Of a stretch of DNA of 64,000 nucleotides, positions 4,653 to 38,268 are shown in pieces (position 1 is the stretch's first letter; each line of letters begins with the position of its first letter). Both the position numbers and the translations under genes were made by a program. Source of the stretch: a virus. The notes below the pieces were generated by a model. The model made no database searches. It was given only the letters and a program-made list of their open reading frames with translations, and had not been told where the DNA came from. The stretch spans positions 1 to 64,000 of the IMG/VR virus record IMGVR_UViG_3300025711_000007, one strand, 5' to 3'.

Positions 4653-4832
4653 ATGGGCACGGTGACGTCGCTGAGCATCCGCCGCGATCGGATTCGGATG
4701 GAACGCGTCGCCGCCGAGCTGCGGAGCGGCGACCCGGTCTACGGAGACTGGTGGGCGCTGCTCTACCTGCTCGCGCACGTCCGAGACGCGGCTCGCCGAG
4801 TATCGGGAGACCCGGGCCGCGCGGCGACCTAG
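4653..4832 (+). CDS. Small hypothetical protein
   Basis: 59 aa, unrecognised. Predicted helical with an aromatic stretch GDWWALLYLLAHV. The start is set by the promoter just upstream. The stop shares a CTAG with the stop of the convergent lanthipeptide-like gene. Confidence 0.6.
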   Translation: MGTVTSLSIRRDRIRMERVAAELRSGDPVYGDWWALLYLLAHVRDAARRVSGDPGRAAT

Positions 4833-4993
4833 TTCGTGTGCGTGCAGGTCTTGCTCTGCGTGCAGCACATCCCGGTCGGTGCCGCCGTGCTGCACATGCC
4901 GCCACCGACCACGTCACCCATGTCGGTCGAGCTCAGGACCTTCACCGTCTCGCTGTTCAACTTGGTCTTCGAGTTACGCTTGTTCTTGTTCAC
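4829..4993 (-). CDS. Lanthipeptide-like RiPP precursor peptide
   Basis: 54 aa, GTG start with GGAG 6 nt upstream. Residues 1-32 resemble a class I lanthipeptide leader: a Lys-rich start, then KLNSETVKVLSSTDMGDVVG ending in a double/triple-Gly cleavage motif. The remaining 22 residues are a compact core with four Cys (34, 43, 44, 50) and eight Ser/Thr, including GMCCTQSKTC, a pattern like other lanthipeptide cores. No LanB, LanC, LanM, peptidase or exporter gene lies in the window, so any modification would need host or distant enzymes. An alternative is a small metal-binding Cys peptide. Minus-strand single gene. Confidence 0.65.
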   Translation of the reverse strand: MNKNKRNSKTKLNSETVKVLSSTDMGDVVGGGMCSTAAPTGMCCTQSKTCTHTN

Positions 4994-5027
4994 TTGGTGC
5001 TCCGTTCGTTAGCCGTCTTGATTGCCG

Positions 5028-10880: not shown

Positions 10881-10914
10881 CACCTGCCAGCAGGGCGTGG
10901 TGGACTGCTGGCAG
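10877..10914 (+). promoter_or_regulatory. Leaderless promoter inside a 10-bp inverted repeat
   Basis: -35 TTGACA (10877-10882), 18-nt spacer, -10 TGGACT (10901-10906), 8 nt to ATG 10915. CTGCCAGCAG (10884-10893) and CTGCTGGCAG (10905-10914) are perfect inverted arms flanking the -10. This may be an operator or a 5' hairpin. Confidence 0.65.
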
Positions 10915-12945
10915 ATGAGAGACGACGAGGACACGGTCAGGGACGAGGACGCGCTGGCGCTCTGCGGGGACGACGCGGCGGCCTGGGCCAGGGAGTTTGC
11001 GAGGGTCGCCGGCCGGCTGCCGGCGGGCGCGGTCGACGAGGACTTCGTCCGCGGCTGGTTCGCGAACGCGATCGAGCGCGCCTGCGACGCCCGGGCGCTC
11101 CGAGACGCCGCTCGGCAGGAGGCGGTCTCGGAGCGCGACCCCGGGCGGTGGGTCAAGTTCCCCGCCGGGTGGCTGGAGCAGCCGGGTAACAGCAGGCGGG
11201 TCGACCTCCTCGTGCTGGAGGCGCGCGGCGAGGTCCCGCTGCGGCGGTCAGCGGCGACTGCGTTCCCAGACCTCGCCGCCGCGGCGGAGGTCGCCGACCA
11301 GGCGGTCGCCGAGGCGCTCTGGCCTGGGGCGGGCTCGCCGGCGGGCGGCAGGTTCACCCGGCGCGGCGACGGCGCGGTCGTCGCCGCGGTCCAGTGGACG
11401 GACGACAACTGGCGCGAGGTCAAGTCCTGGATGGAGGCGCGCGGCCTCCGAGGAGCGCTCCAGCGGAGCGGCGACGACGGCCGCGAGGTGCGGTTCACCA
11501 GCAGGGACGGCAAGCTCAGCCTGGGGTGCATGCCCGGCGGCTGGTTCGTCGAGGGGTCCACGGTCGCCGCGCTGTCGCGCGAGCGGTTCGAGCAGCTGTA
11601 CGAGCCGGCGCGGGGCGCGGCGGAGGCCGAGGCGACGAGCGTCGCGGACCTCCGCCGCGCCATCGGCGGCGTCCCGCCCGGCGGCGCGAGCGGCGGCGCT
11701 CCGGGGTGGCTGGTTCGGCTGCACCGGGCCGCCTGCGCGGTGGCCGGGGTCGAGGTCCGCGACTCGGTCGAGCCGACCGCGGCTCCAGCTGGGCAGCTGT
11801 TCGTCGAGAAGAAGCCGAGGCCAACCGTCAGCGCGGTGCGCTGGACGGGTGACAACAAGGACGAGGTCAAGTCGTGGCTGAGCGCTCGGGCAACCGAGGT
11901 TCGGATTGACCGGGACCGCAAGGGGTGCGGTCTGGTGATCTTCGCCGACGAGGACGGCTCCGTCATCCGGCACTCCGCGCCGGGGTGGCTCGTCGAGGAC
12001 AAGCTCGGCCTCGTCCACTCGATGACCGACAAGAAGTTCAACCTCCTGTACGAGCCCGCGCCGGCGCCCGTCGACGTCGACGCGCCGCTGTCGGGGTTGA
12101 GAGCTAGCCTGCGCGACGATCTCCGCCGCGCCTCGGAGCTCGCCCAGTGGCGAGCGTGGGCGCGCGTCGTGCTCACCCGCACCCCAGCGTCGCCTCAGCC
12201 GGGCGTCTCGCTGGACGGCGTCTCGGACCGCGACCTGCGGTGGAAGATCGCGCAGGCCATCACGGCGTCGTGGGCGCCGAGCGCGCCGCCGAAGATGACG
12301 AGCGAGCAGTTCGACCAGGCGTACGAGAGCGCCGAGCGCGCCGCGGGGCCTGCGGTGACCGGCGCGTGGTGCGTGCACCGCTGCGCCGAGGCTCCGGCCG
12401 ACCGCGCGTGCGGGATCGTCGAGGTTGTTGGAGATGAGCTCTGGATCGTCTCGGACACCAACCGCGACGAGTGCCAGCACGGCATGCGCCTCTCCGACGC
12501 GGAGCACATCGCCGCGCTCCACAACGCGAGCCTCACCCCGCGGCAGGCGAGGGTGCTCGACGCCAGCGACTTCGTGGTCGAGGCGTGCGCCAGGGTCGCT
12601 ACCGACGTCTACGCCGCGGGGATCGGCGACGTCCGGACGCCGTCGTGGGACGCGGCGACCCACCCGGTCAGGGAGACCGCGCGCGCGTCGGTGCGGGCCG
12701 TGTTCGACGGGACCACCCCGGAGCAGTGGCACGCGAGGTGGAAGGCGGAGAAGGAGGCCGACGGGTGGACCTACGGTCCGGAGAGGGACGACGAGGGGAA
12801 ACAGCACCCGAACCTCCGGCCGTACGGTGAGCTGCCGGAGGCGCAGCGCGCGCTCGACCACCTGTTCGCCGTCGCCGTCCGCGCGACCCGCCGAGTCGTC
12901 GAGGAGGCCACCTACCCTCTGCTCGTCGTCCGAGGTCGGTCGTGA
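10915..12945 (+). CDS. Large cytoplasmic protein with tandem YEP-type phage domains
   Basis: 676 aa. Two diverged copies of a small domain common in phage proteins are visible: about residues 157-230 (AAVQWTDDN...VKSWM...PGGWFVEG...YEPA) and 306-381 (AVRWTGDN...VKSWL...PGWLVED...YEPA). The N-terminal 150, the spacer and the C-terminal 290 residues are unrecognised. The C-terminal part contains helical TPEQWHARWKAEKEADGW and DHLFAVAVRATRRVVEE. ATG set by the promoter. Its stop overlaps the next start (GTGA). Function unknown. Confidence 0.6.
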   Translation: MRDDEDTVRDEDALALCGDDAAAWAREFARVAGRLPAGAVDEDFVRGWFANAIERACDARALRDAARQEAVSERDPGRWVKFPAGWLEQPGNSRRVDLLVLEARGEVPLRRSAATAFPDLAAAAEVADQAVAEALWPGAGSPAGGRFTRRGDGAVVAAVQWTDDNWREVKSWMEARGLRGALQRSGDDGREVRFTSRDGKLSLGCMPGGWFVEGSTVAALSRERFEQLYEPARGAAEAEATSVADLRRAIGGVPPGGASGGAPGWLVRLHRAACAVAGVEVRDSVEPTAAPAGQLFVEKKPRPTVSAVRWTGDNKDEVKSWLSARATEVRIDRDRKGCGLVIFADEDGSVIRHSAPGWLVEDKLGLVHSMTDKKFNLLYEPAPAPVDVDAPLSGLRASLRDDLRRASELAQWRAWARVVLTRTPASPQPGVSLDGVSDRDLRWKIAQAITASWAPSAPPKMTSEQFDQAYESAERAAGPAVTGAWCVHRCAEAPADRACGIVEVVGDELWIVSDTNRDECQHGMRLSDAEHIAALHNASLTPRQARVLDASDFVVEACARVATDVYAAGIGDVRTPSWDAATHPVRETARASVRAVFDGTTPEQWHARWKAEKEADGWTYGPERDDEGKQHPNLRPYGELPEAQRALDHLFAVAVRATRRVVEEATYPLLVVRGRS

Positions 12946-15439: not shown

Positions 15440-16179
15440 CTCCGCTGGCGGAGAGCTTGAATCTGCTCCGGGAGGTCCGGGCGAGCTCGCCCGGCGTGAT
15501 CATCGGGCTGAGCGGAGGCAAGGACTCGCTGGCGACGCTCGACCTGTGCGTGCGCGAGTTCGGCGCGGCCCGCGTGAGGGCGTTCCACATGTACCTCGTG
15601 AAGGGTCTCCGCTGCGTCGAGCGGACCCTGCGGTGGTGCGAGAGCCGGTACGGGGTCGCGGTCGAGGCGGTGCCGCACTGGACGCTCGCGAACGCGTACA
15701 AGTACGCCTCCTACATGCCGCACCGATCTCGGACCGACGGGTGGAGGGACACGCGCATGAGGGACATCGAGCAGGCGGTGCGCGCCAGGCTCGGCCCGTG
15801 GTGGATCGCGTACGGCCACCGCATGTGCGACAGCATCGAGCGGGTCGGCATGCTCTCCAGGAACGGAGGGCTGGACGCCGCCGGCCGCCGCGTCTACCCG
15901 CTGCGGGTGTGGAACGAGGCATCCGTGATGGCGTACCTGCGCGCGCGGAAGATCCCGCCGCCGCCCCGGCTGACGATCCTCAAGAGGTCGATGACGGGCG
16001 TCTCGTTCCAGGAGGACGTGCTGATCGCGATCCGCGACAGCTACCCGGACGACTTCGAGAAGATCGTCGAGAAGTTCCCGTACCTGCCGGCGAAGCTGGT
16101 CAGGTACGAGCTGAAGAGGAAGACATGGAAGCAGAGCACGTACGTCGACAAGTGGCGGACGTCTCTCAAGGACAGATGA
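15436..16179 (+). CDS. Phosphoadenosine-phosphosulfate-reductase-like (PP-loop) protein
   Basis: About 247 aa. The PP-loop ATP-binding motif GLSGGKDSLATL is at residues 24-35, with PAPS-reductase-like features (SIERVGMLSRNGG, RVYPLRVWNEASVMAYLR). Such proteins in phages often sit beside a ParB-like gene, as here, and their substrate is unknown. The frame is open from ATG 15280, but that part overlaps the basic-protein gene and has poor GC3. The true start is probably CTG 15436 (CTGA overlap) or TTG 15457. Confidence 0.8.
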   Translation: MTPLAESLNLLREVRASSPGVIIGLSGGKDSLATLDLCVREFGAARVRAFHMYLVKGLRCVERTLRWCESRYGVAVEAVPHWTLANAYKYASYMPHRSRTDGWRDTRMRDIEQAVRARLGPWWIAYGHRMCDSIERVGMLSRNGGLDAAGRRVYPLRVWNEASVMAYLRARKIPPPPRLTILKRSMTGVSFQEDVLIAIRDSYPDDFEKIVEKFPYLPAKLVRYELKRKTWKQSTYVDKWRTSLKDR

Positions 16180-24315: not shown

Positions 24316-25764
24316 GTGCCGTCCGTCAGCCTCGACGCGATGTTCGGTGACGGAGGGGCGGACCTGGGCGGCGACGTCGTCGCCAAAGCCCAGGTCCGGT
24401 TCCGCGTCCGGCCGCCGGCGCACCCGGCGGCGCAGGACGTCGTCGACCGCGTCGTGTCGGCGTACGACGAGCGGCTCGACATGATCCTCGACGAGATCGT
24501 CGCGGTGATCCGATGTGCGAACTCGGAGCGTCCACCCACACCCGTCCTCGTGGTCGAGGGTGACCGCTCCACCCCGCGGGATCTCGTGGCGAAGGCCACG
24601 CCGCGCGCGCCGTTTCGTCCGGGGTCGCGAGGAGGCAAGTGGTACCGCGACAGCAAGGGCAACGTGCGCTACGGGGAGCCTCCCGAGGGGCGTTTCATGG
24701 GGAACGCCGGGACGGATGCCCCGATGCCGCACCTCGACCACTTCCGGCCTCGTCAGTTCATGGGCACCTTCGGCAGCGACCGGGAGCTGACCGGGTTCTT
24801 GGTCGAGCACGGGAGCAAGCACGGGTTCTCCGACAGCGAGCTCCGGTTCCTCAGCGCGTGGTACGGCACCAGCGACGGGGACGGCGGCGCCCTCTACGAC
24901 GCGTTCCTCGAGTGCGCCGGCTTGACGCGAGAGGAGGCGGCGAACGACGTCACTAACCTCCGCTTCGGCAGCAAGCAGCTCACGTACGAGGAGGCGGTGT
25001 TCGAGTTCTTCGCGGCGCAGGGTGCGCTGTTCATGGGCGAGGAGCCAACCTCCCCGGACCAGGTGAAGGAGTGGCACGCCGTGTTGAACGACGAGATCAA
25101 GCCGCTGCTCGACGACGTGTTCGTCAAGTACGAAGGGATGAAGGATGACGAGTCCCTGCAGGAGCACTTCGCGGGCGAGTCCGGCCGGCAGCGTCGCCGG
25201 TTCTTCGACCACGCGCGTCGCTGCGCAGGTGACGTCGACGGGGTCTCCGACTCCGTCGTTGGTGACTGGGATCCGACCCGGGTGACGGACACGGTCTTGA
25301 TGGGTATGCAGGCTCTCGGCCTGATCGCCCGCCGCGCCAGGGCGGAGCACCACGCGTACGTCCACGGGCGCCCTCACCTCCGCGACGCGGTGGTCGTCGA
25401 CGGCAGGTTGATCGCCAACGGGTCTGACAGCCCGCTTCTCGAGGGCGGCGGCAAGCTGGCCGAGCTGTCGTCCTCGCAGCTCATGCTGCTCTACGTGGCA
25501 GCCGAGCTGCACCGCAGGTGGGACGCGCACGCGCGGTCGTTCTCGCCGGAGAAGCAGGCGGACGTCGGCGCCGGCGAGCTCGGCGAGGCGGTGTTATCCG
25601 CGCTCGCGGGGAAGACTCCGCGGTGGGCCGAGGTGTCGAGCGTGATCCGCGGGCGCCTCGCGGAGCTGGTCGACCTCGTGGTGTCGCGGCTCAACGCCGT
25701 CAACTCCCGCGAGGGTCTGCCCACCAAGCACGGGCCGGCGAAGCGGCGGCGAGGGTCGCGGTGA
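24316..25764 (+). CDS. Head-module protein, unknown function
   Basis: 482 aa, GTG start 4 nt after the previous stop. Residues about 95-120 carry FRPGSRGGKWYRDSKGNVRYG, a short motif seen in several phage head proteins. The rest is mostly helical and acidic (EEPTSPDQVKEWHAVLNDEI). The C-terminus is basic. Could be an injected or scaffold-like protein. No catalytic motif found. Confidence 0.55.
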   Translation: MPSVSLDAMFGDGGADLGGDVVAKAQVRFRVRPPAHPAAQDVVDRVVSAYDERLDMILDEIVAVIRCANSERPPTPVLVVEGDRSTPRDLVAKATPRAPFRPGSRGGKWYRDSKGNVRYGEPPEGRFMGNAGTDAPMPHLDHFRPRQFMGTFGSDRELTGFLVEHGSKHGFSDSELRFLSAWYGTSDGDGGALYDAFLECAGLTREEAANDVTNLRFGSKQLTYEEAVFEFFAAQGALFMGEEPTSPDQVKEWHAVLNDEIKPLLDDVFVKYEGMKDDESLQEHFAGESGRQRRRFFDHARRCAGDVDGVSDSVVGDWDPTRVTDTVLMGMQALGLIARRARAEHHAYVHGRPHLRDAVVVDGRLIANGSDSPLLEGGGKLAELSSSQLMLLYVAAELHRRWDAHARSFSPEKQADVGAGELGEAVLSALAGKTPRWAEVSSVIRGRLAELVDLVVSRLNAVNSREGLPTKHGPAKRRRGSR

Positions 25765-27718: not shown

Positions 27719-28579
27719 ATGAGCGAGTTCTCAGACCTCGTAATGCGCGAGAAGCCGCGGAAGCTCGGCAAGGCTCCGGGCGGCAAGAGCGGGGCTTTGC
27801 TCGCGTCGTACGAGGGAGGAGTCAAGGCGATCGTCAAGGTCACCAAGGACAAGCTGCCGAGCGGCCACCGCAAGCAGCGCGGCATCCCGGCCGAGGCTCA
27901 CCCGACGCGGGAGGTCGCGTTCTACAGCGCCGCGCTGATGCTCGGGTACGGAGAGCTCGTGCCGGAGACGGTGCTGACGAGCAAGGCTGTGCCAGGCGCG
28001 ACGGCGTCGGCGCAGCTGTTCGTCCCCGCGCACCAGCTCCACGAGGTCGTGCCGGAGCTGAAGGACCTCGACGCGCCCGACTGGGGGCAGCACCTCGTCG
28101 AGGCGTGCGCCAGGGTACCGAAGGTGTTCTGGAAGCGGCTCCTCATCCTCGACATCCTCGGCGGGGTCCGCGACCGTCACGCGAACAACATCGGCCTGCG
28201 CCTGCGCGTAGTCGACGACCAGCCGGTGTACAGGAACGTCGCTTGGGACAACGCGGTGTCGTTCGGCAAGACGTTTGATCGTTACCACAACGTGTTCCAC
28301 AAGCACTTGTTCCGGAGAGCTGTGGACCTCGGAGAAGAATGGCAATCTGTAGACAAGTTGACCCGCGCTGACCTGCGAGGAGCAGTCGGCATGTACTTGC
28401 AACCAGACGAGCTCGAGCATGCCTACCTGCGCGTGCGGTTCTTCCGCGACTACCCCTACCGATTGCCGTGGCGCGTCTGCAGCAAGGGCAACGACGACCC
28501 GCACGGTTTCCCCGACTACGAGACGTATTTCCGGTCGTGTGTCGGGGGCCCCCGACACACGGCACACGTCGCGGCATGA
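27719..28579 (+). CDS. PI3/PI4-kinase-like (HipA-type) kinase fold protein
   Basis: 286 aa. The kinase-like features are VKAIVKVTK (Lys about 36-43), PTREVAFYSAA with Glu 65, then LLILDILGGVRDRHANNIGL (141-160) with catalytic-loop Asp 152 and Asn 157, and AWDNAVSFG (175-183) as the metal-binding Asp motif. The order matches phosphatidylinositol 4-kinase/HipA folds. It may phosphorylate a virion or host protein. Part of the gene (28270-28400) is lower in G+C. Confidence 0.65.
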   Translation: MSEFSDLVMREKPRKLGKAPGGKSGALLASYEGGVKAIVKVTKDKLPSGHRKQRGIPAEAHPTREVAFYSAALMLGYGELVPETVLTSKAVPGATASAQLFVPAHQLHEVVPELKDLDAPDWGQHLVEACARVPKVFWKRLLILDILGGVRDRHANNIGLRLRVVDDQPVYRNVAWDNAVSFGKTFDRYHNVFHKHLFRRAVDLGEEWQSVDKLTRADLRGAVGMYLQPDELEHAYLRVRFFRDYPYRLPWRVCSKGNDDPHGFPDYETYFRSCVGGPRHTAHVAA

Positions 28580-28612
28580 ACTTCGTGTATATTCAACCCG
28601 TGGTGACCCGAG

Positions 28613-29359
28613 ATGCGTGAGCGCGACCATGTCGACCGCCTCCTGGAGAGCGACGACTTCTGCGTGTGGACTCCCATCGACACCACGCTGATAGAGAAGT
28701 CAGCCAAGGCGGGCGTCGACGTCGAAGCGACGCGCCCGATCGGCGGGTGGTGCTCGACGGAGAACATCGACAGGCAAGAGGAAGTGGTCGTTGCCAAGGG
28801 GCTCGACTTCTCCGAGTTCGTGCAGTTCGGGTACTTCAACGACAACCACCGGCAAGACACCGCGTCGGTGCTCGGGTACCCGAGGCTCGCCAAGCTCCAC
28901 AAGGCGGGGTGGTGGACCGAAGGTAACCTGCTGCCTGGTTACCCGCCGGCGGACCGCGTGTGGGAGCTGGCCAAGGCGCTCGCGAAGTCGCGGGCCCCCC
29001 GCAGCCTCGGGTTCTCCATCGAGGGCAAGGTGCTGGAGAGGGACGGAGGATCGCGCATCGTGAGGGCGAAGGTGCGCAACGTCGCCATCACCAACGCTCC
29101 GGTCAACACCGACTGTACGTGGTCCATCTTGTCAAAAGCGTTCTCCTCGGCGGGCCGGGTGGAGACCGCGGCTCGCAAGGCTATGGCAGAAAACCGGACG
29201 ATGGGGCAGAGTCAGGGGGGCCACAGCGTGAGCAGCATCATCCACCAGCGCAACGTGGTCCTCAGCTTCGACGAGGCGGTCGACCGCGTGCGGAGGATCC
29301 ACCCGCACCTCAGCAAAAGCGCGTGCGCGCGCGTTGTCCGCTTCGCGGCGCGTCGCTAG
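28613..29359 (+). CDS. Prohead (capsid maturation) protease
   Basis: 248 aa. Cleaves scaffold and capsid proteins during head maturation. HK97-type serine protease features: WCSTENIDRQEEVVVAKGLD, NDNH with His 79, and LGFSIEGKV with Ser 135, followed by RAKVRNVAITNAPVN. The C-terminal 80 residues are extra. ATG 28613 has a weak ribosome site. A TATATT at 28588-28593 may be a -10 box. Confidence 0.8.
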   Translation: MRERDHVDRLLESDDFCVWTPIDTTLIEKSAKAGVDVEATRPIGGWCSTENIDRQEEVVVAKGLDFSEFVQFGYFNDNHRQDTASVLGYPRLAKLHKAGWWTEGNLLPGYPPADRVWELAKALAKSRAPRSLGFSIEGKVLERDGGSRIVRAKVRNVAITNAPVNTDCTWSILSKAFSSAGRVETAARKAMAENRTMGQSQGGHSVSSIIHQRNVVLSFDEAVDRVRRIHPHLSKSACARVVRFAARR

Positions 29360-29371
29360 GAGATCCGAACC

Positions 29372-29704
29372 ATGCCTGCCACCAAGAACACGTTCTCGCC
29401 GCGCCCCTGGCAGAGCCAGCAGGACGGCAACGTCCACACGGGCGTCGTGTCCGTCACGGGGTCCGCCGTGGTTGACCTCGGGATCGGTCACGGCAACTTC
29501 GTCCCCTGCGTCAGCTTGCAGGGTTCGACGGCGGCGATCGCAAACGCGGCGGCCAACGTGACGTGGTCGTACGGGCCGCAGCCGGGTCAGTTCACGATCT
29601 CCACGTGGAAGGCGACCGCCGCCGGCACCACCACGTTGATCGCCGCCACCGCGGCGGTCAGCGTGTCGTTCATCGCGTTCGCCGATAGTTCGGCGGGAAT
29701 TTAG
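29372..29704 (+). CDS. Small beta-rich decoration-like protein
   Basis: 110 aa. All-beta pattern with Ala/Thr-rich strands (AATAAVSVSFIAFADSSAG). AGGAG lies about 9 nt before the ATG. Position between protease and capsid genes suggests a capsid-decoration protein. Confidence 0.55.
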   Translation: MPATKNTFSPRPWQSQQDGNVHTGVVSVTGSAVVDLGIGHGNFVPCVSLQGSTAAIANAAANVTWSYGPQPGQFTISTWKATAAGTTTLIAATAAVSVSFIAFADSSAGI

Positions 29705-29718
29705 AGAAGGAGACGGAT

Positions 29719-30072
29719 ATGGGTAAGAACAACGTCATCCCGAACTTCGCCGACGTGCAATTGGCGAAGGTGAACAGGAACGAGTCCCTCACCGTGCCAG
29801 ACACCATCCAGGCGGCGTCTCCCAGCGGGATCTCGTCGGGGTTGTCGCCGGCGACGCTGTTCGACAGCAAGCGCGCCACTGTCGGCGGCGCCATCTACGC
29901 TGCCTACAGCGACGCAGCGGGGCCCGCGAGCGACGACTTCCAGTACAACCTCAACCCCGGCGACGTGGTCGCGGTGAGCAACGCCGCCTCGGCGCTCGTG
30001 ACGGTTAACGGGAACCTCGTCTACACGATCGCGAACACCAACGTCGCCGGCGTCCTCCTCTACTACGTGTAG
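29719..30072 (+). CDS. Small virion-type protein
   Basis: 117 aa. AAGGAGA precedes ATG 29719. Beta-rich, ending NTNVAGVLLYYV. Contains YNLNPGDVVAVSNAASA. Likely a capsid-associated or decoration protein, by position only. Confidence 0.5.
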   Translation: MGKNNVIPNFADVQLAKVNRNESLTVPDTIQAASPSGISSGLSPATLFDSKRATVGGAIYAAYSDAAGPASDDFQYNLNPGDVVAVSNAASALVTVNGNLVYTIANTNVAGVLLYYV

Positions 30073-30120
30073 AGGACCCGTCCGACCGCCGCCTCCTCCA
30101 TCGCGCGTTAAGGAACTGAC

Positions 30121-31131
30121 ATGGCAAAGACCAAGATCGCTGAGGGCAAGCTCCTCAAGGCCATCGCCGAGCTCGAGGCGGTCACGAAGGGTGACCCGCT
30201 GGAGGAGGCGGACCCCGAAGGCGGGTTGTCCACCGAGGGTGAGCCGCTCTCCGACGGGGCTCCTCGCGGGCGCGGCGACGCGACCAAGAAGTCGCGCCGG
30301 GCGAGCGCGAGTTCCCCGTTCGGGTCCAGGTCGTCGAGCTCGGCGTCTTCGGACGCGAGCTCGGACGATGGCGACGACGCCGACGCGATGTCGCCCCAGA
30401 AGCCCATCCCGAAGAAGGGAAAGAAGGTCAGCAAGGCCGCCCCGCCGCCGGCCGAGAGCAGCGAGTCGGACAGCGACGACGACTCCAGCGCCGGGTCCAG
30501 CGACTCCGACGATTCCGACGATGCGGACAAGTCGTTTCGCGACGCGGCCGAGGGCGACGAGGTGATGTCCAAGGGGCTCGTCGTCAACGAGTTCCTGGAG
30601 GCGATGGTCGACCAGATCAGCCTGGCGCTGTTCAACGTCCAGAAGTCGATGGCGAAGTCGCTCAAGGCGATGGAGCAGCGTCTCCAGTCCCACATCGACG
30701 ACCGCGTCGCCAAGAGCGCGGCGGGTCAGGGCGACTTCAATGCCCGCCTCGCGAAGGCGGTCGCGGCGATCGGCAACACCGTGCAGGGCGAGCTGCTCGG
30801 CATGGCGGACATGGTCAAGTCGATGGCCAACCAGCCGGTGTCCGGCCCGCGTGGCAAGGCGGTGCTGAGCAAGGGAGAGGTCAACGCGCCGCCGTGGAGC
30901 GGGCCGTCGGCAGTCAACGCCGACCAGCGGATGGCGAGCGGGTCGGGCGGGGACTACGTCGCGGAGCTGAGCGAGCTGTCCCCCGAGGCGATCGGGGACT
31001 GGCTGTTCAAGAAGTCGGCGAGCCAGGCCGTGGACCCGCGGGTCATCATGGCCTGGGAAGCGGATCGCTACAACGTCGAGGTGTTGCCTGTGCAGATCCG
31101 CAAGGCCATCGCCAACGACCTCATCAAGTAA
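30121..31131 (+). CDS. Acidic scaffold-like protein
   Basis: 336 aa. Residues about 60-140 are extremely Ser/Asp/Glu-rich (SESDSDDDSSAGSSDSDDSD). A helical part (MVDQISLALFNVQKSMAKSL) follows, and the C-terminus has ELSELSPEAIGDWLFKKSAS. Size, charge and position just before the capsid gene and after the protease fit a scaffolding protein. Confidence 0.55.
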   Translation: MAKTKIAEGKLLKAIAELEAVTKGDPLEEADPEGGLSTEGEPLSDGAPRGRGDATKKSRRASASSPFGSRSSSSASSDASSDDGDDADAMSPQKPIPKKGKKVSKAAPPPAESSESDSDDDSSAGSSDSDDSDDADKSFRDAAEGDEVMSKGLVVNEFLEAMVDQISLALFNVQKSMAKSLKAMEQRLQSHIDDRVAKSAAGQGDFNARLAKAVAAIGNTVQGELLGMADMVKSMANQPVSGPRGKAVLSKGEVNAPPWSGPSAVNADQRMASGSGGDYVAELSELSPEAIGDWLFKKSASQAVDPRVIMAWEADRYNVEVLPVQIRKAIANDLIK

Positions 31132-31151
31132 GTAGAAGGGAGGCGCCCGAA

Positions 31152-32552
31152 ATGATCTCGATGAAGGACTACGAGGGTTACCACGGCTTCGGGCAGCTCG
31201 CCCAAGTCGAGGTTGACGAGCTGAGCAAGGCGCTCAGCTCTGGTTACCAGAATCCGCCCGTCTCCGGCTCCAACGCGCTGCGCGTCGAGTCGCTGGAGCA
31301 GACGCTGCGGATCCTGACGTTCACGCAGGCGCACGTCCAGTTCTGGCGGGACATCCCGAAGCTGCCCGCCTTCTCGACGGTCGAGGAGTACAACGTCCAG
31401 ACGTCGTACGGCTCGGAGGGTGGCATGTTCACCCGCGCCGGCGAGCTGCCGCAGGTCCAGGACGCGTCGTACGAGCGCCGCACGGCGCTCGTGAAGTACG
31501 TGACCACGCAGCGCGAGGTCGACCACCCGACGACGCTCGTCCGGCCCGCCCACGGCAACGTGGTCGCGCAGGAGACCCAGAACGGCGGCGTCTGGATCCT
31601 GGAGCGCGTCGAGCGCGCCCTGTACACGGGCCGCAGCGACGTCATCACCGAGGCGTGGGACGGTCTCGACCAGCAGATCCGCAGCGACCCGAGCGCGGCG
31701 AACGTGGCGATCATCGACCTCCGCGGCGGCATCTTGACGGAGGACAACGTCGAGGACGCCACCAACCGCGTCATCGAGAACTACGGCGTGCCGACCGACC
31801 TCTACGCCGCGCCGAAGGCGCTGTCGTCGATGGTCAAGCAGTTCTACCCGCGCGAGCGGTTCAACATGCCCGCGCCGGTCGACGGCGTCGTCGGCATGTC
31901 GGTCAACCGGATCCGCACGCAGGCGGGCCTGATCAACCTGAAGGGCAACATCTTCCTCCGCTCGGGGAAGAACAACTCGGTGAAGAACGCGCCCGCCGCG
32001 GCCAACTCGGTGCGGGCCCCGGTGGTGCCGAGCGCCTCGGCCGCGAACACCGCCGGCCCGATCGCCGCGTCGCTGTTCGGGGCCGGAGACGTCGGCACGT
32101 GGCGCTACCGCGTCACCGCGGTCAACCGCTTCGGCGAGTCCGCCGCCAGCACCGTGACGACCGCGGCGATCGCCGCCGCGCTCGACGAGATCACGGTGAC
32201 GATCACCAACAACGCCGACAGCAGCGACCCGACGACCGGGTACAACATCTACCGCTGCCCGACGGTGGGCGGCGGGGTGGGCACCGAGCAGTACCTGACC
32301 CAGGTGCCGCGCGTCGCCGGCGCGGCGACGACGGCGTTCGTCGACGCGAACCGCTTCCTGCCGAACACGAGCCGCGCCTACCTCAAGCAGATGAACCTGC
32401 AGGCGATCTCGTTCCGCCAGCTGGCGCCGATGATGAAGATCCCGCTGGCGACCATCGCGCTCAGCATCCGGTGGGCGATGCTCCTGTACGGGATGCCGAT
32501 CGTCTACGCGACGCGCAAGTTTACGATCTTCGACAACGTCGGCGACGAGTAG
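31152..32552 (+). CDS. Major capsid protein with Ig/FN3-like insertion
   Basis: 466 aa. Forms the head shell. Position after protease and scaffold-like genes, and stretches such as QTLRILTFTQAHVQFWRDI, SYERRTALVKYVTTQREVD and LAPMMKIPLATIALSIRWA, fit a tailed-phage capsid protein. Residues about 315-400 (GTWRYRVTAVNRFGESAAST ... TTGYNIYRC) are an Ig/fibronectin-III-like insertion, as in surface-displayed capsid domains. ATG 31152 preceded by a weak GGGAGG. Confidence 0.8.
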   Translation: MISMKDYEGYHGFGQLAQVEVDELSKALSSGYQNPPVSGSNALRVESLEQTLRILTFTQAHVQFWRDIPKLPAFSTVEEYNVQTSYGSEGGMFTRAGELPQVQDASYERRTALVKYVTTQREVDHPTTLVRPAHGNVVAQETQNGGVWILERVERALYTGRSDVITEAWDGLDQQIRSDPSAANVAIIDLRGGILTEDNVEDATNRVIENYGVPTDLYAAPKALSSMVKQFYPRERFNMPAPVDGVVGMSVNRIRTQAGLINLKGNIFLRSGKNNSVKNAPAAANSVRAPVVPSASAANTAGPIAASLFGAGDVGTWRYRVTAVNRFGESAASTVTTAAIAAALDEITVTITNNADSSDPTTGYNIYRCPTVGGGVGTEQYLTQVPRVAGAATTAFVDANRFLPNTSRAYLKQMNLQAISFRQLAPMMKIPLATIALSIRWAMLLYGMPIVYATRKFTIFDNVGDE

Positions 32553-32588
32553 TATCATCGTCTGCGATGGTGATCGCAGACGATGATA
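32553..32588 (+). promoter_or_regulatory. Perfect 16-bp hairpin enclosing a start codon
   Basis: TATCATCGTCTGCGAT (32553-32568) and ATCGCAGACGATGATA (32573-32588) form a perfect stem with loop GGTG. ATG 32567 straddles stem and loop. TATCAT at the left end could be a -10 box 8 nt before the ATG. No T-run, so not a classic terminator. It could be an operator, an RNA processing site, or a translation switch just after the capsid gene. Confidence 0.6.
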
Positions 32589-33082
32589 AAGATGATAAGC
32601 CGGTGACGTTGTTGGTCCGTCAGTTGACCGACCGGATCCGCCGGCGCGGGTCCGACCAGCTGGTCAACTTGCCGATCGTGGACGGGATCGACATCGGCGA
32701 CGTGTACCCCGTCTGCGACGTCCTCCCGCAGGACCCGACCGACGAGCAGTTCGACGACCTCGCCGTCCGGGCGTCCTCCTTCATGGAGGACGTCCACCGG
32801 CTGCACGTCGAGCAGCGGGCGGCGCGCGGCGACTCGATCGCGGCGGCGTGCGTGCCTCTCAGCATACCCATCTTCCACCGAGGACGTCTCCGGGAGGCCA
32901 AGGCGGCGGACGCGGCGCCGCAGCAGATGGCGAGCATCAAGGAGCGGGAGACGCTCTGCATATTCCACTTGCGCGTCCCGCTGTGGCGCGGGTACACGTG
33001 GGCCGGGCAGGCCGCGGCGATCGACGTCGTCGCTCGCCGGCACGGTCTCCGCTGCGTTGACCAGGGCCGCATCCCCGAGTAG
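32567..33082 (+). CDS. Head-module protein, unknown function
   Basis: 171 aa. Starts MVIADDDKDDKPVTLLVRQL inside the hairpin. Alpha/beta, with LSIPIFHRGRLREAKAADAA and RETLCIFHLRVPLWRGYTWA. Unrecognised. Location after the capsid gene suggests a head-completion or decoration-related role. Confidence 0.55.
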   Translation: MVIADDDKDDKPVTLLVRQLTDRIRRRGSDQLVNLPIVDGIDIGDVYPVCDVLPQDPTDEQFDDLAVRASSFMEDVHRLHVEQRAARGDSIAAACVPLSIPIFHRGRLREAKAADAAPQQMASIKERETLCIFHLRVPLWRGYTWAGQAAAIDVVARRHGLRCVDQGRIPE

Positions 33083-33105
33083 CCGGGCGCGCCCGCATTC
33101 GGCAG

Positions 33106-33142
33106 TTGACCGGGCCCCCGGGACCGGCCGATCATCGCGGGC
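33106..33142 (+). promoter_or_regulatory. Leaderless promoter
   Basis: -35 TTGACC (33106-33111), 18-nt spacer, -10 GATCAT (33130-33135), 7 nt to ATG 33143. Confidence 0.6.
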
Positions 33143-35049: not shown

Positions 35050-38000
35050 GTGTCCTTTTTCTCCCCGCCGCCTCTGCCGCCGCGACGCCGGCCTGGTCCG
35101 CCGCTCGGTGTCCAGAGCTCGGTGGACGGGGTCGGCGCGATCACCGGGTCTGGCGACCTGGCCGGCGCGTCGGCGCCGCCCGGCGCTGGCGCGCTGACCG
35201 GCTCCGGGACCCTGGCCGGCGCCGGCGCGGCGCTGGCCGCCGGGGCGGGCGCCCTGACCGGGTCCGGCACGCTGGCGGGAGCTGCCGCCACGTTCCCGCT
35301 GTCGGTGTCCGCCAACGGGCGCTACCTTGTGCAGGCCAACGGGACGCCGTTCCTGATCTGCGCCGACGCGACGTGGTCGATCTTCGTCGACATCCCGCTC
35401 GCCGGGCTCAGTTCGTTCCTCGGGACGATCGCCGCCCAGGGGTTCAACGCGGTCTCCGGCAACGCGATCGAGCACCACTTCTCCGTCGTCAAGCCACCCA
35501 AGGAGCGCGGCGGCCTCCTGCCGTTCACGCAGCGGATGGACGGGACGTCGTACACGGGGTCCCCGAACGGGACGACCGGGGCGTCCGGCACCCAGGGCCA
35601 GTTCGCTAGCGACAACTATAGCAACATAAGCAACCAGGCTCCGGACTGCACGTTCGTCAACAACAGCTACTGGGTGGTGCTGGAGACGATCCTCGACGCA
35701 TGCCTCGCGAACGGGTTGCTCGTGTTCGTGTGGCCCGGGTACCTCGGGTTCAACGCCGGCGACGAGGGCTGGGCCGGCGAGATGGTGGCGTGGGACGCGG
35801 TCACCGGGGCTGGCGGCTTCACCGGGCAGCCGTTCGCCGACCCGACCAAGACGAAGATGTGGAACTACGGCGCGTGGCTCGCCGCGCGCTGGAAGAACTA
35901 CGGCAACATCATCTGGGTGATGGGCGGGGACTACGGGTCCGGGACGCACCCGCTCACGGGCCCGCAGTCGGCGGCGGCGAGCAACCTGATGGCGGGGATG
36001 AAGTCGGTGGCGGGGCAGCAGTCGCTGCTGTTCACGGGTCACTGGGACCGTTCGTCGCTGTCGACGGACACGGCGTTGGCCGCCGGGTCGTTCGACGTCA
36101 ACGGGTGCTACTCCGACGACGCGACCGCCGAGCTCGCGCGGCGTGGGTACGCCGCGTCGCCGACCAAGCCCGTCGTCGGGCTCGAGGCGTACTACGAGGA
36201 CAGCGCGGTCGGCGGCAGCGCGCCGTGGAGGAAGTACCTCTACTGGCAGTTCGTCGGCGGGATCGCGGGCGGCTTCTTCGGTAACGAGCAGCTGTGGAGG
36301 TTCGACGACGGAACCCCGGGCACCGACTACACCACGCTGCTCTCGACCCAGTCGACGAACGACGCCGTGCGGCAGTTCTCGCTGTGGCGGACGCTGCCGT
36401 GGCACCGGCTGAAGCCGTCCGGGCTCGGAGGCATGGGCACGCTGATCACCGCGGGTGGAGGCACGGCGAGTCCGCAGTCGACCGACTACGTCGCGGCGGC
36501 GGCGACGTCGGAGGGTGACCTGCTGGTCGCCTACGTCCCGCCAGCGCACACGGGGACGATCACGGTGAGCATGACCGTGATGGCAGCGTCCGCGCGGGCT
36601 CGCTGGTTCGACCCGACCAACGGGACCTTCACGCAGATCGGCGTGGTCGCCAACACGGGGACCCACGTCTTCACCCTCCCAGGGACCAACAGCGCCGGCG
36701 ACGCCGACTTCCTGCTCGTGCTCGACACGCCGGCCGGCGCGCTGACCGGCTCCGGGACCCTGGCCGGCGCCGGCGCGGCGCTGGCCGCCGGGGCGGGCGC
36801 CCTGACCGGGTCCGGCACGCTCGCCGGGGTTGGCGCCGCCTCGGCTGCTGGGTCTGGGACCCTAGCCGGGTCCGGCACGATCGCCGGGGTCGGGGCTGCC
36901 TCGGCCGCCGGCGTCGGCAGTGTCACCGGGTCCGGAGACCTCGCGGGGACCGGAGCCACCGTGATCCCGGGGTCCTCCGCGCTCGCCGGCTCCGGCACGA
37001 TTGCTGGAGTCGGCGCCGAGCTCGCGGCCGGCGCTGGCGCGCTGACCGGATCGGGCACGATCGCCGGGGCCGGCGCGTTCGTGCTGCCGGGAGCCGGGGC
37101 CGGCAACCTGACCGGCTCCGGGACCCTGGCCGGCGCCGGCGCGGCGCTGGCCGCCGGGGCGGGCGCCCTGACCGGGTCCGGCACGCTCGCCGGGGTCGGG
37201 GCGGCGCTCGTCGCCGGCGCGGGCGCGCTGACCGGATCGGGGACGCTCGCCGGGGTCGCGGCCACGACCGCGCCCGGAGCGGGCGTGATCACCGGGTCCG
37301 GAGACCTGGCCGGCGCCGCCGTCGTGCCCGCGGCGGGGTCCATCGTCGGCTCCGGCACGATCGCGGGCGTTAGCACCAGCACCCCTGCTCCCGAGGTACA
37401 AACGAACATGCCGCCAGCTCCGGTGACCCCGTCGAACCAGCCGGCTGCGTCGGCGGTCATCAGGCAGACGTCGTCGCGGTTCAGCTCGGTGTTGTCCCTC
37501 GACGACCTGACGCCGAGGTACCTGCAGGACAACTACCTCACCGGGTTCACCATCACCGGGTCCGACGGCCAGCCGCTCCCGCCGAAGTTCTATGAGGACA
37601 AGATAGCCGACGCCATAGCGAAGCTGGAGAGCGTGACGCACATCGACGTCTTGGAACGAGACGTCACCGGAGAGAAGCACGACTACCACACGAACGACTA
37701 CCTCAACTACGCGTACCTGCAGCTGTTCCGCACCCCCTGCCAGTCCATCAGCCAGGTCCGCGCGGTGTACCCGACGGGGCAGGTGATCCAGGTGTTCCCG
37801 TCCGAGTGGGTGCGCGTCTACGTCGAGCACAGCCAGATCCACCTCGTCCCGACCTCCGGCTCCCTCGCCCAGGTGATGCTCGGCGGCGGCAACGGGTACC
37901 TGCCGTTCATCTTCGCCGGCCTGTCGTACCTGCCGAACCTGTGGGAGGTCGACTACGTCTCCGGGTTCCGTGTGGACGGGGTCCCGCGGGAGGTCGTGAG

Positions 38001-38268
38001 CGCCGTCTGCAAGCTCGCCGCGATCGAGGTGCTGACCATCGCGAGCGACCTCGTCGGGCCGCTCGGCATCGCGTCTACCAGCCTCGGCATCGACGGCATG
38101 TCGCAGTCGATCGCCCGGCAGCTGCCGGCCTTCAAGGCGCGGATCGACCAGTACCGGGTCGACCTCGGCATCCCGGGCCCGGCGCTCGGGGTCGACCCGA
38201 AGTACACCACCGGAGAGATCGGGCAGCTCCGCCGCACCTACCTCGGCATGGTAGCGGTGAGCGTCTAG
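35050..38268 (+). CDS. DUF4038 glycosidase - repeat - head-tail connector fusion
   Basis: 1072 aa, GTG start. Order: Pro/Gly start with GALTGSGTLAGAGAALAAGA repeats (about 20-80). DUF4038 (apiosidase-like) TIM-barrel glycoside hydrolase (about 82-475; PFLICADATWSIFVDIPL, LLVFVWPGYLG, GNIIWVMGGDYG). A collagen-binding-2-like domain (about 480-560). About 12 more TGSGTLAG/TGSGTIAG repeats (about 560-775). A C-terminal connector domain (787-1072; LTPRYLQDNYLTGFTITGSD, WEVDYVSGF). ATG 37408 with GAGGT upstream could make the connector alone. It joins a host-surface enzyme to a neck protein, which is unusual. Confidence 0.75.
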   Translation: MSFFSPPPLPPRRRPGPPLGVQSSVDGVGAITGSGDLAGASAPPGAGALTGSGTLAGAGAALAAGAGALTGSGTLAGAAATFPLSVSANGRYLVQANGTPFLICADATWSIFVDIPLAGLSSFLGTIAAQGFNAVSGNAIEHHFSVVKPPKERGGLLPFTQRMDGTSYTGSPNGTTGASGTQGQFASDNYSNISNQAPDCTFVNNSYWVVLETILDACLANGLLVFVWPGYLGFNAGDEGWAGEMVAWDAVTGAGGFTGQPFADPTKTKMWNYGAWLAARWKNYGNIIWVMGGDYGSGTHPLTGPQSAAASNLMAGMKSVAGQQSLLFTGHWDRSSLSTDTALAAGSFDVNGCYSDDATAELARRGYAASPTKPVVGLEAYYEDSAVGGSAPWRKYLYWQFVGGIAGGFFGNEQLWRFDDGTPGTDYTTLLSTQSTNDAVRQFSLWRTLPWHRLKPSGLGGMGTLITAGGGTASPQSTDYVAAAATSEGDLLVAYVPPAHTGTITVSMTVMAASARARWFDPTNGTFTQIGVVANTGTHVFTLPGTNSAGDADFLLVLDTPAGALTGSGTLAGAGAALAAGAGALTGSGTLAGVGAASAAGSGTLAGSGTIAGVGAASAAGVGSVTGSGDLAGTGATVIPGSSALAGSGTIAGVGAELAAGAGALTGSGTIAGAGAFVLPGAGAGNLTGSGTLAGAGAALAAGAGALTGSGTLAGVGAALVAGAGALTGSGTLAGVAATTAPGAGVITGSGDLAGAAVVPAAGSIVGSGTIAGVSTSTPAPEVQTNMPPAPVTPSNQPAASAVIRQTSSRFSSVLSLDDLTPRYLQDNYLTGFTITGSDGQPLPPKFYEDKIADAIAKLESVTHIDVLERDVTGEKHDYHTNDYLNYAYLQLFRTPCQSISQVRAVYPTGQVIQVFPSEWVRVYVEHSQIHLVPTSGSLAQVMLGGGNGYLPFIFAGLSYLPNLWEVDYVSGFRVDGVPREVVSAVCKLAAIEVLTIASDLVGPLGIASTSLGIDGMSQSIARQLPAFKARIDQYRVDLGIPGPALGVDPKYTTGEIGQLRRTYLGMVAVSV
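35194..35273 (+). repeat. 80-bp exact repeat, copy 1
   Basis: This 80-bp DNA segment is identical to 36742-36821 and 37108-37187. Each encodes two GALTGSGTLAG-type units. Exact identity in an otherwise diverged protein repeat suggests recent copying or gene conversion. Confidence 0.9.
36742..36821 (+). repeat. 80-bp exact repeat, copy 2
   Basis: Identical to 35194-35273. Opens the repeat block that follows the glycosidase domain. Confidence 0.9.
37108..37187 (+). repeat. 80-bp exact repeat, copy 3
   Basis: Identical to 35194-35273. Lies near the end of the repeat block, before the connector domain. Confidence 0.9.

Follow-up and report, generated by a model that had tools for sequence, protein, structure and literature searches.

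Can a virus encode the precursor of a RiPP and leave its maturation to enzymes of the cell it infects? The question is raised by a short frame on the minus strand of the window (i.e., the whole stretch of 64,000 nucleotides analyzed here, which itself belongs to a virus record of 79,784 bases termed G000). A first-pass annotation had described this frame as a 54-aa reading frame with a GTG start preceded by GGAG, a triple Gly and a Cys/Ser/Thr-rich core of 22 residues, and all of these elements are present as described. The features of the locus, including a block shared with a second phage (G002), are as follows:

4829–4993, minus strand: precursor gene, 54 codons plus stop with a GTG start; supported by the codon model and by a homolog in the second phage
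5000–5003, minus strand (5003–5000 in reading direction): GGAG, a ribosome-binding-like site six bases 5' of the GTG; read from the sequence
4898–4993, minus strand: leader, residues 1–32, with Gly-Gly-Gly at its end and the pattern L..ETVKVL......VVGG; supported by profile, local-model and pairwise scores
4832–4897, minus strand: presumed core, residues 33–54, MCSTAAPTGMCCTQSKTCTHTN; read from the sequence, no family match on its own
4841–4906, minus strand: block identical in G002, residues 30–51, GGGMCSTAAPTGMCCTQSKTCT; 22/22 residues and 57/66 bases

The precursor gene and its carrier phage

Under a codon model trained on G000, the frame, which translates as MNKNKRNSKTKLNSETVKVLSSTDMGDVVGGGMCSTAAPTGMCCTQSKTCTHTN, reached 20.9 and the plus-strand frame that touches it 5.1; with a GC3 of 0.93, the precursor frame also lies close to the long genes of the record (0.91). 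The precursor frame is confirmed as a real gene, beyond chance, with an independent phage homolog keeping a 22-residue block through synonymous changes only. Following the triple Gly, the presumed core holds four Cys and eight Ser/Thr residues within its 22-residue tail, the Cys and Ser/Thr composition of a class I core; no Ser/Thr stands ahead of the first Cys, which is unusual for the common ring direction. A search for a promoter or terminator of the gene on the minus strand found none.

The record is viral, with genes for portal, sheath, baseplate, DNA polymerase A and RecA. Another IMG/VR contig (G001), 99.985% identical to G000 over 40 kb and carrying a near-identical copy of the precursor, extends ~25 kb upstream of window position 1 and brings the known sequence of this phage, which also encodes ThyX and a DnaB-like helicase, to ~105 kb. 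Against Bacillus phages related to SPO1, the capsid protein matched at 37% over 98% and the portal protein at ~41% over 79%, all below 60%; judged on these two proteins, the carrier is a distant SPO1-like myophage.

A constant core behind a changed leader

Protein searches and a pattern scan across 2.9 million IMG/VR viral contigs led to the same two phages only, the one independent relative being carried by the 117-kb contig G002. The ~50 genes common to the window's phage and G002, mostly at 25–60% identity, place G002 in the same broad lineage, with a G+C content of 43% versus 67% in the window's phage. In G002, the precursor gene starts 26 bases past the preceding gene, on the same strand as its neighbors, and ~600 bases past the gene orthologous to G000 76068–77057. 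The frame is intact and a ribosome site is present in both phages.

The two peptides relate to each other very differently on either side of the processing motif. The block GGGMCSTAAPTGMCCTQSKTCT is identical at 22/22 positions, with nine synonymous and no nonsynonymous codon differences (dS ~1.1), whereas the leaders agree at only 6/28 positions (dN ~0.97), and the break falls at the Gly-Gly-Gly. Had the block changed at the leader's rate (pN 0.54), ~28 nonsynonymous differences should have accumulated over its 50.7 sites; none was observed. Moreover, this is the longest identical run among all ortholog pairs of the window's phage and G002, and not one of 12,945 other 22-residue segments in the remaining pairs is identical. 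As read from two independent sequences, on which the whole contrast rests, the codon pattern shows purifying selection on the core and a break between leader and core—two separate evolutionary units joined at the processing motif, as in a RiPP precursor.

Because the precursor gene has the highest codon identity for its size of all G000/G002 orthologs (z 4.7) and a deviant GC3 in G002 (0.58, against 0.35 +/- 0.08 for the long genes there), it has probably been transferred horizontally, into G002 at least, at a time that was not recent but later than the divergence of the phage backbones. The gene is an accessory one for the lineage, with no copy found in 16 further records (most of them fragments, one 118 kb long).

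Searches for other relatives were negative within their scope: the presumed core alone matched no Pfam family and no solved structure, PHROGs gave no match for the precursor, and phage and plasmid records contained no relative of it. Of two scans of 84,980 species genomes for a cellular copy of the core, the first confirmed nothing, and none of the 15 pattern matches from the second resembled a related precursor once translated. Two further leads were discarded on inspection, namely seven weak and unrelated matches from a profile search of 379 Myxococcota and a spurious match in record G008 (E 0.001), antisense to a long phage gene.

Likeness of the leader to class I lanthipeptide leaders

Among curated families, the strongest match of the window's leader is TIGR04149 (GG_sam_targ_CFB), a family named for radical-SAM modification of RiPP precursors; the score of 23.7 bits (E 3.3e-5) narrowly misses the cut-off of 25, and the G002 peptide is not matched. 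NF038153 (lant_leader_L1a) gave 13.9 bits with the window's whole peptide and 15.7 with its leader alone, clearly missing the cut-off of 22; the corresponding values for the G002 peptide are 13.8 and 15.9 (E 0.011). For calibration, NF038153-type precursors were collected from Bacteroidota and Acidobacteriota, and a local model was built from 15 leaders. With this model, the window's peptide, together with its near-identical copy, ranked first among 5,696 short frames from 19 phage records, scoring 21.5 bits against 7.1 for the next unrelated frame, and 0/5,000 shuffles of the leader did as well. The G002 peptide scored more weakly, at 4.2 bits, with 33/5,000 shuffles as good, though its leader too falls on the lanthipeptide side.

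Pairwise scores point in the same direction. The window's leader reached 57 and 50 with cellular leaders (57 with KKLHLKKETIKVLQSSELKQVAGG from Acidobacteriota) and 39 with the G002 leader, which in turn scored 43 with a Bacteroidota leader; shuffles matched the window's scores with two Acidobacteriota leaders in 0/5,000 cases. The identical core thus stands behind two leaders whose resemblance to each other does not exceed their resemblance to leaders of cellular lanthipeptides. Such leaders are associated with LanB: all 11 genomes tested that have NF038153-type leaders carry it, mostly 0.3–8 kb from the precursor, and the Acidobacteriota cluster with the leader closest to the window's (G757:C68) has LanC too.

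The first-pass annotation had likened the peptide to class I lanthipeptide precursors and proposed a comparison with RiPP leader families. The likeness of the leader holds up as beyond chance, whereas the name lanthipeptide is not settled, both family matches falling below their curated cut-offs and the stronger of the two being to TIGR04149, with its radical-SAM name. Since the curated tests fail and no synthetase is encoded by the phages, we do not file the peptide under class I lanthipeptides and claim no membership in that class; we treat it instead as working like a RiPP precursor that has a leader of this type.

Capsid proteins are clearly related across the wider uncultivated SPO1-like lineage (records G000–G018), and its G+C content runs from 39% to 70%, a range that suggests very different hosts. 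Myxococcota had come into view as the host from the 67% G+C alone and are not supported: an NF038153 leader is found in 0/284 genomes, and no precursor of this leader type turned up in eight Myxococcota LanB regions examined with a simple scan.

Absence of known modifying enzymes from the phage records

The observation in the first-pass annotation that the window has no LanB, LanC or LanM extends, by the wider search it had proposed, to the whole of G000, to its partner contig G001 and to the 117-kb G002. Six-frame searches for the LanB N-terminal domain and for the LanC-like domain (which covers LanM) gave no match in any of the three records, with cellular controls positive, and Radical_SAM was likewise without a match in all three while detected in 14/14 controls. 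These searches covered ~105 kb of the window's phage and 117 kb of G002, in records that may be fragments. Among the Pfam families listed for the called genes, which in the two larger gene sets were the first 25, no further RiPP enzyme of a known type appeared. The class I arrangement, with LanB and LanC encoded alongside the precursor, is therefore not seen in G000, G001 or G002, and the TIGR04149 type is set apart both by its score and by the lack of a radical SAM maturase.

A proposed precursor for host enzymes and the alternatives

Reasoning from these comparisons, we lean towards the reading that the phage supplies a RiPP precursor to be matured in trans by a class I synthetase of its host. 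The phage would provide the class I lanthipeptide-type leader, the Gly-Gly/Gly-Gly-Gly processing site and the Cys/Ser/Thr-rich core; the infected cell's own LanB/LanC-type synthetase, or some related maturase, would dock on the leader and then carry out the modification of the core; and a host exporter/protease would cut at the Gly-Gly and free the product. We propose that the core stays the same since the finished peptide has a fixed target to hit, and that the leader, which need only fit the enzyme of the current host, is thereby free to drift or be replaced. We infer modification, the use of a host enzyme, the identity of that enzyme as LanB/LanC, export and an activity against bacteria or competitors; the roles put forward for the peptide in the first-pass annotation, superinfection exclusion or kin killing, are guesses. 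In favor of host maturation stand the first-ranked leader, the LanB linkage in 11/11 genomes, the 22/22 core against the 6/28 leader and the lack of phage enzymes. Against it stand the number of sequences (two), the missed cut-offs, the lack of a cellular relative of the core, the missing Ser/Thr before the first Cys and the 284 Myxococcota genomes without the leader family; a phage enzyme could also escape view if the records are incomplete.

That last point underlies one alternative, in which the phage has a maturation enzyme of its own, located in an unsequenced remainder or too divergent for the profiles. All records are possibly fragments, many of their genes have no family and the Pfam view of the larger sets comprises the first 25 families listed, but the six-frame search of ~105 kb plus 117 kb without LanB, LanC/LanM or radical SAM speaks against it, and we regard it as improbable. 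The same lack of enzymes would also suit a small phage protein that needs no RiPP enzymes, its Cys-rich end forming disulfides or binding metal while it acts on a host or phage protein and its leader likeness being partly fortuitous. A binding motif would explain the conservation of the core alone equally well, and the G002 leader scores weakly. Yet the window's lanthipeptide-type leader lies far beyond shuffles, the conserved stretch starts exactly at the Gly-Gly-Gly, and neither a Pfam family nor a solved structure was matched, so this account appears rather unlikely.

The pattern of conservation bears most directly on two further proposals. The first-pass annotation had raised the idea of a decoy for the host enzyme. 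In this role, the peptide would fill the leader-binding site of a host synthetase and so block the production of an anti-phage lanthipeptide. The leader does resemble those bound by LanB systems, and in Streptomyces, lanthipeptide clusters can confer protection against phages (PMC12360287). A decoy, however, should keep its leader and let its core drift, and the invariant core behind a leader with 6/28 identity is the opposite pattern, which argues against the idea and makes it very improbable. An unused fragment of a host RiPP cluster, caught by the phage as a passenger, would be compatible with the accessory status of the gene, which the other lineage records examined did not yield, and with the horizontal movement suggested by its codon identity and its GC3 in G002. 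With no nonsynonymous against nine synonymous changes in the core, and with frame and ribosome site intact in both phages, the passenger proposal is largely refuted by the selection pattern and scarcely credible.

If maturation by host enzymes is correct, a broader picture may be sketched, albeit tentatively: a phage lineage that spreads a fixed bioactive peptide, keeping the core invariant, matching leaders to whichever host synthetase it meets and always borrowing the enzymes from the host.

Relation to known systems

Precursors with NF038153 leaders in Bacteroidota and Acidobacteriota share the Lys-rich start, the leader pattern L..E[TS][IV]..L......V.GG and a short Cys/Ser/Thr-rich core with the phage peptide. 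They differ in adjoining LanB (and LanC) and in often occurring as several copies whose cores vary, whereas the phage gene is solitary and single-copy, its core is invariant and its score stays under the curated cut-off. TIGR04149 precursors provide the best curated leader match but differ in the score (23.7 < 25), in the radical SAM enzyme that the phages lack and in leaving the G002 peptide unmatched. Prochlorosins are in-trans precursors encoded far from the synthetase that serves them, within one cellular genome, and have varied cores behind constant leaders. A separation of precursor gene and enzyme would be common to both cases, but here the partners would be a virus and its host, and it is the core that is constant and the leader that varies.

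The SP-beta prophage, in turn, carries the complete sublancin 168 cluster, with precursor, glycosyltransferase, exporter, oxidoreductases and immunity (PMC8270828). Sublancin shares with the present peptide a phage-encoded precursor, a Gly-Gly-type leader and a Cys-rich core; here, only the precursor is found. Bacteriocin clusters carried by phages are the subject of a survey (Dragos et al. 2021, as cited in PMC7616364), and lanthipeptides have been reviewed as anti-phage agents (PMC12360287). Whole bacteriocin clusters in phages are therefore already known, whereas the literature searched, which covered few subscription journals, contained no report of a viral gene for the precursor alone, here one whose core is invariant and whose leader can change. 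If the proposal is true, viruses would be exploiting the natural-product enzymes of their hosts, and the two leaders would amount to a natural experiment on the fit between leader and synthetase. The 22-residue block, which is under strong purifying selection, is directly assayable for activity.

Other genes of the two phages

Several further genes of these phages deserve mention. The DNA polymerase A of G000 (70360–73833; L003:6360–9833) has 1157 aa, with a LAGLIDADG domain at aa 770–847 (E 1.9e-11) between two polymerase stretches, while its G002 ortholog has 755 aa; the insert is probably an intein. A 1048-aa virion-region protein (window 35122–38268) contains an apiosidase-like catalytic domain (E 6.6e-35) and a collagenase-type domain, with flanking 60-base Gly/Ala repeats, and since the G002 ortholog has only 271 aa, the glycosidase module was seemingly inserted. 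A PAPS-reductase-like protein (window 15496–16179; phrog_424, E 7.2e-13) is without an ortholog in G002. G002 encodes at 28162–33129 (L009:8162–13129) a protein of 1655 aa in which SNF2/DEAD helicase domains occur together with ADP-ribosyltransferase exoenzyme domains; it may be injected along with the DNA, and its counterpart in G000 has 482 aa (24316–25764). Finally, a 681-aa early-region protein (window 10900–12945) ends in a RyR domain (E 3.8e-10) that it has in common with a 199-aa protein of G002.
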